A stretch of DNA of 64,000 nt from Balneolaceae bacterium (GTDB lineage: Bacteria; Bacteroidota; Rhodothermia; Balneolales; Balneolaceae), in NCBI GenBank assembly GCA_034521445.1, contig JAXHMM010000017.1, positions 124,001 to 188,000 on the forward strand, read 5' to 3'. Positions 669 to 6,552 of the stretch are shown in pieces. Under the pieces are notes generated by a model. That model did no database searches and was not told the origin of the DNA. It worked only from the letters and a program-made list of their open reading frames with translations. The translations under genes were made by a program, and so were the position numbers. Every line of letters starts with the position of its first letter. Positions within the stretch are counted from its first letter, which is position 1.

Positions 669-2318
669 ATGACAAAGCGACTCACCCATCTCCTGGTCGG
701 CATTTCCATCGGCACCCTGCTCACCCTCGGCGCATTCCATCTGCTGGACGACCGTGAAATCACCCCGGAAACGGTGCGGCAGACCTCCAGGGTCCTCGGC
801 CTGGAATTCACCGACGGCGAGATTGACGCCATGATCGGTACCCTGGAGAACAACCGTGAGGACTACGTCGACCTGCGGGAGCTTTCCATTCCCAACGGCC
901 TGCCCCCCGCCCTGATATTCGACCCGGTACCCGCAGGCAAATCTTTCGACCGCACGCAGGAGCCCATCGACTGGGAGATACCAGGCGACGTACCTCTGCC
1001 TGACGACCGATCCGAGCTCGCCTTCTACTCTGTACGCGAGCTGGCCTCCCTCGTCCGCTCCCGCAAGATCAGCAGTGAGGAGCTCACCCGCTTTTTTCTG
1101 GATCGCCTCCGCACCTACGGCGACACCCTGGAAGCGGTGATCACCCTGACCGAGGAACGCGCCCTGGAGCAGGCACGGCGCATGGATCGCGAGCTGGCGC
1201 AAGGCAACTGGCGGGGTCCCCTGCACGGCATACCCTACGGGGCAAAAGACCTCTTCGCCGTGGAGGATTACCCGACCACCTGGGGTGCGGAACCCTACCG
1301 TGACCAGACCCTCGACCATACGGCCACCGTAATCAACAAGCTGGACGAGGCGGGCGCCGTACTGGTAGCCAAAACCACCCTGGGCGCTCTCGCCTACGGG
1401 GACGTCTGGTTCGGGGGACAAACCCGCAGCCCGTGGAATCTGGAGCAGGGCTCAAGCGGCTCCTCTGCAGGATCGGCAGCCGGCACCTCGGCGGGCCTGT
1501 TGCCCTTCGCCCTGGGCACGGAAACCCTGGGGTCCATCGTCTCTCCCGCCCACCGTAACGGCACCACCGGCCTGCGTCCCACCTTTGGCCGCGTTAGTCG
1601 CCACGGCGCCATGGCCCTGAGCTGGAGCATGGACAAGGTGGGACCGCTTACCCGCTCGGTGGAGGACGCCGCCATCGTATTCGACGCCATACGCGGCCCG
1701 GACGGCCGCGACCGCACCCTTTACGATCTGCCCTTTAACTACAAGCGGTCGGTGGACCTCTCCTCCCTGCGCATCGGCTACCTGGATGTGGACGACTACA
1801 GCCATCGCGACTCCCTCACCCTGGCGAAGCTGCGCGAGCTGGGGGCAGAGCTGGTTCCCGTCCAGCTGCCCGACGTGCCGGCCCGCAATATCAGCTTTAT
1901 TCTGAGCACAGAGGCCGCGGCCGCCTTTGACGATCTCACCCGCTCGGGTGCGGACGACGAGATGGTGCGGCAGAGCCCGGGCGCCTGGCCCAATACCTTC
2001 CGCGCCCACCGATTCGTTCCGGCCGTGGAGTACATCCAGGCCAACCGTCTGCGCACGCGTCTCATCGAGAAAATGGACTCGGTTATGCAGCATGTGGACG
2101 TCTACGTCTCCCCCACCTACGGTGGCAGCAACCTGCTGGTTACCAACCTGACGGGCCATCCCTCCGTGGTGCTGCCCAACGGTTTTGACGACGACGGAGA
2201 GCCTGCCAGCATCACCTTCGTGGGACGTCTTTTCGGGGAGGCCGATCTGCTGGGCGTGGCCAAGACCTACCAGGAGGCCACCGATTTCCACACGCGGCAC
2301 CCGCAGATGTTCCGCTGA
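669..2318 (+). CDS. Amidase signature family hydrolase, membrane-anchored or exported
   Basis: This encodes a 549-residue amidase starting at ATG 669. An in-frame ATG at 486 exists, but the extra sequence looks non-coding. Residues 5-25 form a hydrophobic signal or anchor. The amidase domain covers about residues 110-545. The Ser-cisSer-Lys triad of the family can be placed: Lys193 in GIPYGAKD, Ser265 in the GSSGSSAG glycine/serine-rich segment, and Ser289 in ETLGSIVSP. The family hydrolyses C-N amide bonds, and the physiological substrate cannot be told from sequence. Adjacent gatB/gatC genes are absent and there is an N-terminal export signal, so it is not GatA. The C-terminus (ATDFHTRHPQMF) is a normal amidase end, so the gene looks complete. 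Its TGA stop is followed in the same frame by an RND pump remnant. Confidence 0.88.
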   Translation: MTKRLTHLLVGISIGTLLTLGAFHLLDDREITPETVRQTSRVLGLEFTDGEIDAMIGTLENNREDYVDLRELSIPNGLPPALIFDPVPAGKSFDRTQEPIDWEIPGDVPLPDDRSELAFYSVRELASLVRSRKISSEELTRFFLDRLRTYGDTLEAVITLTEERALEQARRMDRELAQGNWRGPLHGIPYGAKDLFAVEDYPTTWGAEPYRDQTLDHTATVINKLDEAGAVLVAKTTLGALAYGDVWFGGQTRSPWNLEQGSSGSSAGSAAGTSAGLLPFALGTETLGSIVSPAHRNGTTGLRPTFGRVSRHGAMALSWSMDKVGPLTRSVEDAAIVFDAIRGPDGRDRTLYDLPFNYKRSVDLSSLRIGYLDVDDYSHRDSLTLAKLRELGAELVPVQLPDVPARNISFILSTEAAAAFDDLTRSGADDEMVRQSPGAWPNTFRAHRFVPAVEYIQANRLRTRLIEKMDSVMQHVDVYVSPTYGGSNLLVTNLTGHPSVVLPNGFDDDGEPASITFVGRLFGEADLLGVAKTYQEATDFHTRHPQMFR

Positions 2319-3245
2319 TCCTCCGCACTTGGGCTGCAGGTACACGAAGTGGCCGACCTGGCCGACGTACGCTCGGAAGCCGAGACGGGTTCCGAGGGCG
2401 AGACCGACGTCTTCCTGACCATGCGCGACGCCAACCGCCAGAGCATCGACGACCTTATGTCCATGCCTGTGCAGGTGAACGAGGCAACCTCCGTTAAACT
2501 GGCTTCCATGGCGGACAACCGTATAGAGAACAGCGCCCGGGCCATCCAGCGGCAGGACCGCCGCACCTCCATGGGCGTGACCGTGAACCTGGACGGCATC
2601 ACCATGGAGAAGGCGCGCACGGACATAGCCACCGTCATGGATCAGATCTCCTACCCCGCCGGCTACGGCTGGAGCTACGGTCGCAGCTTCCAGGACGACC
2701 AGCAGGCCATGGACGAGATGATCGTGAACATGTTGCTGGCCATGTTCCTGATCTATCTGGTGATGGCTTCCCTCTTCGAATCGGTGCTCTTCCCCTCCAG
2801 CATCATCACTTCCATCTTCTACGGGGTGGTGGGCATCTTCTGGTTTTTCATGGTCACAGGCACCGATTTCAGCTTTATGGCCATGATCGGCATCCTTATC
2901 CTGATGGGCATCGTGGTCAACAACGGTATCGTGCTCATCGACCACATCAACCAGCTGCGCGAACGGGGACTCTCCCGCATGGAAGCCATCGTACAGGGGG
3001 GACGCGACCGCATGCGTCCCATTCTGATGACCGCCGGCACCACCGTGCTGGGTCTGCTGCCCCTCTGTTTCGGATCCACCCAGATCGGGGGCGACGGACC
3101 TCCCTACTTTCCCATGGCGAGGGCCATCGTTGGCGGACTGGCCTTTTCAACGGTAATAACCCTGCTCATTCTGCCCGTCATCTACCTCATCCTGGACGAT
3201 CTCAAAAACTGGTCGGCCCGCACCCTCGCTTCAGGCCGCCCCTAA
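2319..3245 (+). pseudogene. C-terminal remnant of an RND (AcrB/CusA-type) efflux transporter
   Basis: The open frame continues directly after the amidase TGA, with a possible GTG start at 2349. It encodes about 300 residues that match only the last third of an RND inner-membrane transporter, which is normally about 1000 residues. It contains part of the second porter domain, then five hydrophobic segments at roughly residues 122-146, 150-172, 174-200, 226-243 and 260-284 counted from 2349. The RND pattern MAMIGILILMGIVVNNGIVL is followed by RMRPILMTAGTTVLGLLPL. The N-terminal two thirds, including the first transmembrane half with the proton-relay residues, are missing because the amidase gene occupies that place. 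It should not work as a pump alone. A deletion or recombination event, or a misassembly, are the likely causes. Confidence 0.82.
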
Positions 3246-3249
3246 CACC

Positions 3250-4068
3250 CTATTCCCAGTCGGGGGCGAAGCTGGGGTTGACCAGGCGGACGCCCTTCTC
3301 CAGGCCGTCAATGCGCTCAAACTCCTCGTCGCTGAGGTGGAAATCGAAGATGTCGATGTTTTCTTCCAGGTGCTCGCGGCTGGAGGCCTTGGGAATGGCC
3401 ACCACGTTCTCCTGCTCAATGAGCCAGCGAAGGGCTACCTGTGCAGGTGTCTTGCCGTGCTCCTCGGCGATTTCGCGGATCGTCTCGTCCTGCTCCACCC
3501 TGCCGCGTGCGATAGGACTGTAGGCGGTCAGCAGGATCTCCTTTTCGATGGCGTAATCGAGTATATCGAGCTGGTCGATGTAGGGATGAAATTCCACCTG
3601 GTTGCAGAAGATGGGAGCGCGTATTTCGTCGTTGACCTCTTTCAGTAGGGAGAGGGGAAAATTACTCACTCCGATGTTCATCGCCTTGCCCTGGTCGCGC
3701 AGCACCAGCATGGCCTCAATGGTGGCGCGCAGGTCGTACTGCTCGTTGGGCCAGTGGATCATCAGCAGGTCCACGTAGGGCGTCTGCATGTTGCGAAGAC
3801 TCTCCTCGGTGGTCTGCAGCACCTCGTCGGAGTCCAGATTGGTATGCCAGATTTTGGTACTCAGAAAGATTTGCTCCCGAGATACGTTGGAGATCTTCAT
3901 CGACTCGCCAATCTCACGTTCGTTCTTGTACATCTGGGCCGTGTCGATGTGACGGTACCCCATGTCGAGCGCCATTCGCACCGCATTGGCGCATTCTCTT
4001 TCGTGAAGTTTGTAGGTGCCCAATCCGATTTCGGGCACATCAATTCCCTGAATGTTTTTGTATTGCAT
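3250..4068 (-). CDS. Aldo/keto reductase (2,5-diketo-gluconate reductase-like)
   Basis: This encodes a 272-residue NADPH-dependent oxidoreductase of the aldo/keto reductase superfamily, full length for the DkgA/DkgB group. The catalytic tetrad is visible: Asp42 and Tyr47 in RHIDTAQMY, Lys72 in LSTKIW and His105 in MIHWP. The C-terminal part has the cofactor-phosphate segment AIPKASSREHLEEN. These cytosolic TIM-barrel enzymes reduce small aldehydes and keto-sugars, and the true substrate is not predictable. It is transcribed alone toward the RND remnant. Its upstream region (4069-4192) is shared with the end of the T9SS surface-protein gene and contains a hairpin. Confidence 0.9.
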   Translation of the reverse strand: MQYKNIQGIDVPEIGLGTYKLHERECANAVRMALDMGYRHIDTAQMYKNEREIGESMKISNVSREQIFLSTKIWHTNLDSDEVLQTTEESLRNMQTPYVDLLMIHWPNEQYDLRATIEAMLVLRDQGKAMNIGVSNFPLSLLKEVNDEIRAPIFCNQVEFHPYIDQLDILDYAIEKEILLTAYSPIARGRVEQDETIREIAEEHGKTPAQVALRWLIEQENVVAIPKASSREHLEENIDIFDFHLSDEEFERIDGLEKGVRLVNPSFAPDWE

Positions 4069-4192: not shown

Positions 4193-5299
4193 CTAAGGGT
4201 TGATGTAGGTAACAGGACGGCTGAAGGGACGCCCGTCTACCTCCAGCATTATTCGGTAGATGCCCTGCGGAAGGTTGGAGGGGGTCCAGGTTTGCCGGTG
4301 TTCCCCGATCTCCATGGGGCGGTCGACCAGCGTGGCCACTTTGGCCCCGATGGTGTTCCAGACGGTGATGCGCACATGGGCGTTTTCGCTCAGCTCAAAG
4401 GGAATGGTGGTGGAAGAGCTGAAGGGATTCGGATACATGGGATTGAGCCTGACCGACTCTGGCGTCTCCTCCTCCGCCACCTGAGGTCCGACGGGCACGC
4501 GAACGGAGAGCGTAAAACGAGGCTGGTCGCCGGCATCCGGGGCGGGCATCTGCAGGTCGGGACGGCGCAGCTCCCCTTCAGTCTGACGGGTGACAGGTCC
4601 CTCGGCCCGTTGTTCAAATTCGTAGGCGTCGCGTGAGCGCAGGTCAATCTGCCTCCCGTTCAAGCGGTCGGTAAGCCGGAGCTCCCAGTTTTCGGGCAAC
4701 CCCTCCATGCTCCATCCCAGTTCCATGGTACCTGAGAAACCTCTCGTACGCACCTCAAGGGGGATGCTCAGCCCTCCCTTCAGGTTGCGGGGACGTGATT
4801 CGCGGGCCTTGTACACGCTGCGGCCACCGCGCTGTCCCACCAGGCTGAGGGTGGCCCAGCGGTCAGAGAGAGGACGAAGCTTGGTGGCGTCCATGGCGTC
4901 CCATCCGTGGGAGGCTTCTTCCCCAAAGACCATTTCGGCGGCGCGGTCCGTGACCGTTTCTCCCCCCGGGCCGCGGCCATTCAGGCGAAAGGAGATGCGT
5001 GGGGTCTCCTCCATGCCCCCTGGAGCAGGATCCCCTGAGTCAAGCTGCGCCGATTCGGGTATTTCCAGACTGGAAGCTTCCCGGTTTTGCACCAGAAAAC
5101 CCTCCCAGGCTTCCAGCCGTGCATCTTGTGGCGTGAGAAGCCGGAAGCTGCGTGTGCGGGCGTCCCATACCTGGGCCACCGCGCTCTCCAACTCACCGCC
5201 CCGGGCCCAGCCTTCCAGGCCGGACAGGTCAAGTGGTGCCGCATAGGGGTTGCCCAGTAGGTTCCAGCCACTGCCCTCGCCGTGAAGATCTACGGTAGA
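4193..5299 (-). pseudogene. C-terminal part of frameshifted lamin-tail surface protein, T9SS sorting domain
   Basis: This is the downstream half of a gene whose upstream half is at 5290-6552. The reading frame is open from 5299 but has no ATG near its start. It begins VDLHGEGSGWNLLGNPY, the natural continuation of the upstream protein, which ends ...NSGNLP. The last 80 or so residues form a type A T9SS sorting domain: PNPFSSSTTIPFEL, then VRITVWNTIGAKVATLVD, then LPQGIYRIMLEVDG. This domain directs secretion across the outer membrane and attachment at the cell surface. The frames join if one G is restored near 5293, giving one protein of roughly 785 residues. The gap may be a true mutation or a sequencing error. 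Confidence 0.75.
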
Positions 5300-6552
5300 T
5301 TACCGGAGTTGCCGCGGCCGGGGGCCTCAAGGACGGCGGTGCTCCCGGAAGCGGAACGGTCGTCGTTTAAGTAGAGCAGGAAGCCGCGTCCCGGCTCAAA
5401 AACCCCGTCCAGGCGGTCCGGGGCGGTGAAGCTCTCCCCGTCCAGGCGCGTGTAGAGATTCTTGGCCGCCATCGGCTCGTAGCCCCGGAAACCCTGCAGG
5501 GGTGTGACGTCGTGCATGTCGGCCAGGCGCATAGCAGGCGCAGGCGAGGAGAGTATATGCCAGGTGCCGGAGTCCAGGCTGCGGGAAGCGGTGAAATACG
5601 TGCCATCGCTGCGCAATCCGGGACTGCGGGACGTCTGGGAGACGGACAGGTGTCCGGTGAAGGCACCCCTGCCCTCGGGGCTGCGGACCAGGGAGCCCTC
5701 GCGTACCCGCTGATCACGGTAGCGGTGGGCGTCAATGCGCGTGCCCGACCCATCAAGAAGGGTCACGGTGTCGCTGTCTCCTTCGGGCGAGAAGTCAGGG
5801 GCCGCCAGGACCTGCGCTCCTCCGTAGGATCCTGCGGGTTGAGTATTGTTGATGACTACCAGGGCCGCGCCGGAAGCGAGACGTGTACCCTCCGGAAAGT
5901 GAAAAGCAGCGCCCCCGCTCCGTGTCAGGTACCACCCTGAGAGGTCCACCTGCTGCCGCTCGGTGTTGAGCAGTTCCACAAAGGCCTCCGTCCCTTCCGC
6001 TCGTCGGTCACCGTCCATGTCTGCTTCAGTGGCCGGCTGAATTTCGTTGATGACGACGCCGGCCTGATCGTTGTCGGCGATGTCCAGGCGGAAGGCGGCT
6101 GAGGTGCCTATGGAGATATTGGGGCCCGAGCGAAGGTTGCGCAGTACGAGGGTGGCGTGCTCCGGCCCTTCGAATTCGTTGTCGTCACGAAGCTCGATAT
6201 GCGCCTGCTGGACGCTGCCCGCTGACAACCCCGCCTCGAAATAAAGGGTAAGGACTTCTGGAGTGGCAAAATCTTCGGAGGAGGCGCTGCTGAGATTGGG
6301 TTGAAGCACGATGTCCACGTGGAGGTCCTCCTGCAGGTTCACGTCCAAACGTACCTCCACGACCACCGTTCCGTCGCTTTCGACCACGTGTGCCCCGGAA
6401 CGCACAAATCGGACCCCCTCCCGGCCGTCTGACGACGCCTGTGCCTCAGCCGGAGTGCGGACATAGCCCTCCGCAGGCGCGGTTCCCAGAAGAAGCAGGA
6501 ACAGGCCAAGGCAGGCGGCTATGTACGCAGGTTTCCGTAGCGTTAATCCCAT
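5290..6552 (-). CDS. Secreted protein with Calx-beta-like and lamin-tail domains (N-terminal part, frameshifted)
   Basis: This encodes 420 residues, starting at ATG 6552 with a clear signal peptide (residues 10-28, LFLLLLGTAPAEG). Residues about 45-160 look like a Calx-beta/sodium-calcium-exchanger repeat, with SEDFATPEVLTLYFEAG and DDNEFEGPEHATLVL. Residues about 165-290 look like a lamin-tail domain (VVINEIQPATEADMDGD, then VELLNTERQQVDLSGWYL). Such proteins are exported and often adhesive or enzyme-associated in Bacteroidota. The frame stops at TAG 5292-5290, in the middle of a domain whose remainder, with the T9SS sorting signal, continues in another frame at 5299-4193. As it stands the product would lack its surface-anchoring signal. 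Confidence 0.8.
   Translation of the reverse strand: MGLTLRKPAYIAACLGLFLLLLGTAPAEGYVRTPAEAQASSDGREGVRFVRSGAHVVESDGTVVVEVRLDVNLQEDLHVDIVLQPNLSSASSEDFATPEVLTLYFEAGLSAGSVQQAHIELRDDNEFEGPEHATLVLRNLRSGPNISIGTSAAFRLDIADNDQAGVVINEIQPATEADMDGDRRAEGTEAFVELLNTERQQVDLSGWYLTRSGGAAFHFPEGTRLASGAALVVINNTQPAGSYGGAQVLAAPDFSPEGDSDTVTLLDGSGTRIDAHRYRDQRVREGSLVRSPEGRGAFTGHLSVSQTSRSPGLRSDGTYFTASRSLDSGTWHILSSPAPAMRLADMHDVTPLQGFRGYEPMAAKNLYTRLDGESFTAPDRLDGVFEPGRGFLLYLNDDRSASGSTAVLEAPGRGNSGNLP

Follow-up and report, generated by a model that had tools for sequence, protein, structure and literature searches.

Efflux pumps of the RND type have twelve membrane helices in two halves, and MdtABC is an MFP-RND-RND efflux operon with two different permeases. 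Deletion pseudogenes of RND efflux operons belong to ordinary bacterial gene decay, and microhomology or template-switch deletions can leave short templated inserts. Here we describe a locus in a draft genome of the Balneolaceae where the end of an RND pump gene directly follows a complete amidase gene. Judging from the sequence and its comparison with related genomes, we consider it probable (about 0.83) that an internal deletion removed most of an efflux-pump operon, left two short islands behind, and destroyed the pump.

Materials and methods

The window, i.e., the whole stretch of 64,000 nucleotides that was analyzed (G000:C17:124001-188000), belongs to a 3.2 Mb draft genome (G000) of 18 contigs with an estimated completeness of 97.8% and a contamination of 3.8%. 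The locus was read in eight relatives (G002, G003, G006, G011, G017, G021, G024, and G034), and the mosaic described below was resolved by alignment to their two pump genes, RND1 and RND2. Family tests for the membrane-fusion protein (MFP), RND1, RND2, and the thioesterase were run on the G006 proteins, the fusion proteins of G024 and G034 being assigned by similarity, and missing lengths were measured on G024 coordinates. The start of the mosaic was searched in 92 genomes of the family including G000, and RND2 matches in 57 relatives, neither set containing another genome of the same genus. The invariant-residue test covered all 22 RND2 loci (L021-L042) and 18 of the 29 amidase loci (L051-L079), and distances were compared over the 10 relatives present in both the remnant and the amidase sets. 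The frameshift survey reported matches with > 40% identity or in several pieces.

The amidase gene and the remnant behind it

The features of the locus, in window coordinates, are:

669..2318, plus strand: intact amidase gene (amidase signature family), by Pfam PF01425 and orthologues
2316..2325, plus strand: junction 1, from the amidase stop to RND1 codon ~788; RND1 similarity starts within a few bases of the stop, and the base-level position is approximate
2325..2360, plus strand: RND1 island, 12 codons, residues ~788-799 of the ~1095-residue RND1, by protein and DNA match
2361..2396, plus strand: RND2 island, 12 codons, residues ~675-686, by protein and DNA match
2397..3245, plus strand: C-terminal part of RND2, residue ~728 to the natural end, by RND2 alignments and ACR_tran 757-1020/1021
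2349..3245, plus strand: GTG-initiated open reading frame, the longest with a start over the remnant; putative product of 298 aa with five hydrophobic segments, by ORF list and hydropathy
3246..3249, no strand: four-base gap between the stops of the remnant and the reductase, without a thioesterase gene
3250..4068, minus strand: aldo/keto reductase gene, native downstream neighbour, by Pfam PF00248 (E 3.7e-63)

The amidase frame runs from the ATG at 669 to the TGA at 2316-2318, and its product of 549 residues combines a match to Pfam Amidase (E 1.9e-74, 251.7 bits, cut-off 27) with the normal end of the family, the alignment reaching residue 552 of the 554 in the G024 protein, which confirms what an earlier note on this DNA had said of its C-terminus. 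Orthologues in G006, G011, G024, and G034 share 66-69% identity with it over near-full length, and the protein has a hydrophobic stretch at its N-terminus.

Directly 3′ of this stop and in the same frame lies an open frame at 2319-3245 (stop at 3243-3245), which matches Pfam ACR_tran at profile positions 757-1020 of 1021 only (E 4.8e-60) and scores 129 bits against the NCBIfam MdtC model (cut-off 1774). The earlier note had thus rightly seen an RND end in the amidase frame, although it is nearer the last quarter of a transporter than the last third that was claimed, and it is composite rather than continuous: an island of RND1 is followed by one of RND2, a gap of 41 missing RND2 codons just before 2397, and the tail of RND2, all in one frame. 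The RND1 island (ALGLQVHEVADL) agrees with RND1 of G034 in 12 of 12 residues, and 31 of its 36 bases are identical to those of G079, the best among the loci compared. For the RND2 island (ADVRSEAETGSE), 11 of 12 residues match the counterpart in G006, G024, and G034 (ADVRSEAETGTE), with G002 giving the best DNA match among the loci compared (31/36 bases); chance similarity was ruled out for both islands by these figures. The product of 2397-3245 is 72-75% identical to RND2 of G002, G006, G011, G024, and G034, and the whole 308-residue remnant 69-72%.

A search with the start of this mosaic (45 residues, 2319-2453) gave a match at E 1e-5 in G000 alone among the 92 family genomes, and a DNA query with 2250-2480 matched five other genomes over 28-37 bases each, all inside 2320-2358 (the RND1 island). 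Compared with a pump of the HAE1 type, the remnant covers only the last part of the ~1020 ACR_tran positions (G006 RND2 matches 2-1020), has five hydrophobic segments by hydropathy instead of twelve helices, and is left at the locus without a partner fusion protein, for which the best match in the own genome has 32% identity.

Some further observations were made in the vicinity. A cobalamin riboswitch (Rfam RF00174, 90 bits) lies on the minus strand at 298-551, upstream of a divergent gene whose start is at 273 and whose remainder extends beyond the window; the encoded protein is 54.9% identical to a BtuF-like protein of G006. In the frameshift survey of the first 30 kb, one gene was split between two frames, namely that of a lamin-tail/Calx-beta protein (4193-6552, minus strand), which is one frame in relatives and is split here near 5263-5299 by what may be either a real small indel or a sequencing error. 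The gene of a substrate-binding protein at the window edge gave one weak (32%) second-frame piece.

The locus in related genomes

In G006, G024, and G034, the amidase gene is directly followed by genes for a fusion protein (351-353 aa), RND1 (1,095-1,102 aa), RND2 (1,010-1,024 aa), a thioesterase-like protein (241-254 aa), and an aldo/keto reductase. G011 has extra genes after the amidase and the same order beyond them, and in G003, G017, G021, and G002 genes of the same sizes are ordered fusion protein, RND1, RND2, with a reductase match following in three of the four. A gene of 350-353 aa precedes RND1 in the loci of all eight relatives, and the reductase gene was found downstream of RND2 in seven of the eight stretches (60-82% identity), the stretch of G021 having none. 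From amidase stop to reductase stop, the interval measures 931 bp in the window, 8,528 bp in G024, 8,571 bp in G006, 8,555 bp in G034, and 12,773 bp in G011. The remnant had a match of ≥ 60% identity in 22 of the 57 relatives, each within an open frame of 1,009-1,038 residues (RND2). By the gene order given above, intact orthologues stand at the same place in relatives, as is typical of a deletion pseudogene.

Since the same neighbours enclose a whole operon in these relatives (~8.5 kb against 931 bp), the amidase gene is, to judge by gene order, in its original place upstream of the lost pump operon, and it does not stand where the first part of the pump would be, as had been proposed in the earlier note. 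The suggestion made there that a deletion placed the pump end behind the amidase agrees well with this comparison; the first part of the pump is indeed missing, although the loss is larger and extends over the fusion-protein gene and almost the entire RND1, and the thioesterase gene, found in most relatives whose locus was read, is absent from the interval as well. In G006, G024, and G034, full RND genes stand between the same neighbours; the note took such a finding as a sign of misassembly, which does not follow, as these genes show the likely ancestral state.

The distance between RND2 and the reductase is 914 bp in G024, 224 bp in G002, and four bases in the window. A search of the own genome, run without a positive control, gave no thioesterase match. 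Because G002 also has no thioesterase gene between RND2 and the reductase, the absence of this gene may be an event separate from the pump deletion. In G012 (L062), thioesterase and reductase are the next genes after the amidase, and the 4.6 kb locus gave no match to the fusion protein or to an RND permease; this could be a parallel loss of the operon, so that the loss may not be unique. Given this locus without pump genes and an RND2 match (≥ 60%) in 22 of 57 relatives, the operon looks dispensable.

No close copies of the lost genes were detected elsewhere in G000 with the G006 proteins as queries, the top matches by E-value having 32% identity for the fusion protein and 36% for RND1, which also gave part matches to other pumps (43% over ~500 and 49% over 97 residues). 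Apart from itself, the remnant had a best match of 35% and one 95-residue piece of 43%, and a scan of the contigs for a near pump relative gave none, only two distant pumps (34% and 29% identity). Three other RND genes of this genome, L111 (G000:C6), L112 (G000:C12), and L113 (G000:C11), match RND1 in at least two frames, and pump genes in G000 may be decaying or carrying indel errors.

Proposed course and age of the deletion

The gene order of the relatives (amidase, membrane-fusion protein, RND1, RND2, thioesterase, reductase) is presumably ancestral. From such a site, ~6.7 kb (3,636 + 2,931 + 123 on G024) would have been deleted between the amidase stop and RND2, leaving two 36-base islands, one of each pump gene, and RND2 from residue ~728 onwards. 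Without a fusion-protein gene, with RND1 reduced to its 12-codon island, and with RND2 lacking residues 1-674, the remnant should not pump and is probably a pseudogene. As the pieces keep their original order and strand, they could derive from template switching in a single repair event or from deletions at short repeats, that is, from one complex event or from a few illegitimate deletions in quick succession. Ku-dependent end joining is without support, no Ku match having been found in G000 at E 0.001 in a search whose control matched in 1 of 14 named genomes.

The remnant shows no stop, no frameshift, and no excess of change. Among 277 aligned columns, 106 are invariant in the 22 RND2 orthologues, and the remnant keeps 105 of them (one changed residue, with an exact upper limit of 5.1%); when each orthologue was left out in turn, it departed from the others at 0-6 of their 105-111 invariant columns, and the amidase of the window, used as a control, differed at 0 of 153 invariant positions. 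The ratio of remnant to amidase distances was 0.87 (0.67-1.07) over the 10 pairs with G000, compared to 0.90 (sd 0.16, range 0.29-1.26) in the 45 other pairs. With 105 of 106 invariant residues kept, either little time has passed since the loss or selection still acts on the frame, and a young deletion is favoured over continued constraint because five hydrophobic segments remain of twelve helices and most of the periplasmic part is gone. All three junctions keep the frame, for which the probability by chance is 1 in 27 (1 in 9 if the two internal ones are taken alone), and together with the lack of decay this counts mildly against a purely neutral scar.

Alternative explanations

It is unlikely, given the conserved gene order and the matching codon G+C, that two unrelated contigs were misjoined, as the earlier note had considered. 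The order of genes is that of G034, G011, and G024 from a point upstream of the amidase to ~30 kb (no match is listed beyond 30,038 in the stretches compared), and the third-position G+C of the remnant (0.839) is close to that of the amidase (0.811) and the reductase (0.768), against 0.42-0.54 in RND2 of five relatives; overall G+C is 0.647 in the amidase, 0.604 in the remnant, and 0.559 in the reductase. The two sides of the junction have the look of a single genome. The neighbour-like third-position G+C and the same flanks in relatives also ruled out a horizontal gain of the pump fragment. A subtler assembly error or a read-level chimera, in which the operon is complete in the organism but has dropped out of the contig, would suit a draft of 18 contigs and a mosaic found in G000 alone among the 92 family genomes, but RND1, RND2, and the fusion protein have no close copy on another contig, the junction lies ~126 kb into a 275 kb contig between conserved flanks, and three joins with near-zero overlap would be needed that keep the frame each time; we regard such an error as improbable.

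A further alternative is selection on what was left, the 298-residue product being kept as a five-helix membrane protein and perhaps co-translated with the amidase. The open frame with all its joins in frame, the conserved residues without an increase in rate, and a GTG start 30 bases past the amidase stop would fit this, but a recent loss gives an identical pattern, the product has lost the N-terminal membrane half together with most of the periplasmic portion, and a search of the other 91 family genomes did not find the mosaic start. A simple scan of 2200-3400 gave no match to a sigma-70-type consensus, a weak test (0.2 expected by chance), as co-transcription with the amidase would need none. 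Such a retained protein therefore seems very unlikely to us, and it is more doubtful still that the RND1-RND2-RND2 mosaic was itself selected, an in-frame exchange having made a chimeric pump and the five-helix remainder being still expressed from the amidase mRNA. Read-through of the amidase stop, which would tether the enzyme to five membrane helices and which the earlier note had raised as a speculation, can practically be dismissed: the two frames are identical, but a shared frame is a one-in-three chance, the C-terminus is like that of the relatives, the amidase already has its own hydrophobic stretch, and the open frames at the 29 relatives' amidase loci (L051-L079) have ≤ 655 residues, none fused to such a part of a pump. 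Nothing was found in support of a fusion. A probably recent deletion within the operon remains our preferred reading.

Comparison with known systems

The odd junction would thus be explained by gene loss, and the shared frame is no ground for reading a fusion protein. At most, the locus may add a further case in which the loss of several genes left short collinear islands behind, here in a genome without a Ku match. It resembles microhomology or template-switch deletions with short templated inserts in that short stretches of the deleted interval lie in collinear order at the junction. Like MdtABC, the lost operon would have had one fusion protein and two different RND permeases in a row, of which the window retains only two scraps and the tail of the second permease. 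In kind the scar is ordinary gene loss, with a well preserved in-frame mosaic junction that is somewhat unusual: as in other deletion pseudogenes of RND efflux operons, most of the operon is lost between conserved neighbours and a 3′ fragment is left, whereas here two short in-frame islands from two neighbouring pump genes are found in addition, and the fragment as yet gives no sign of decay.
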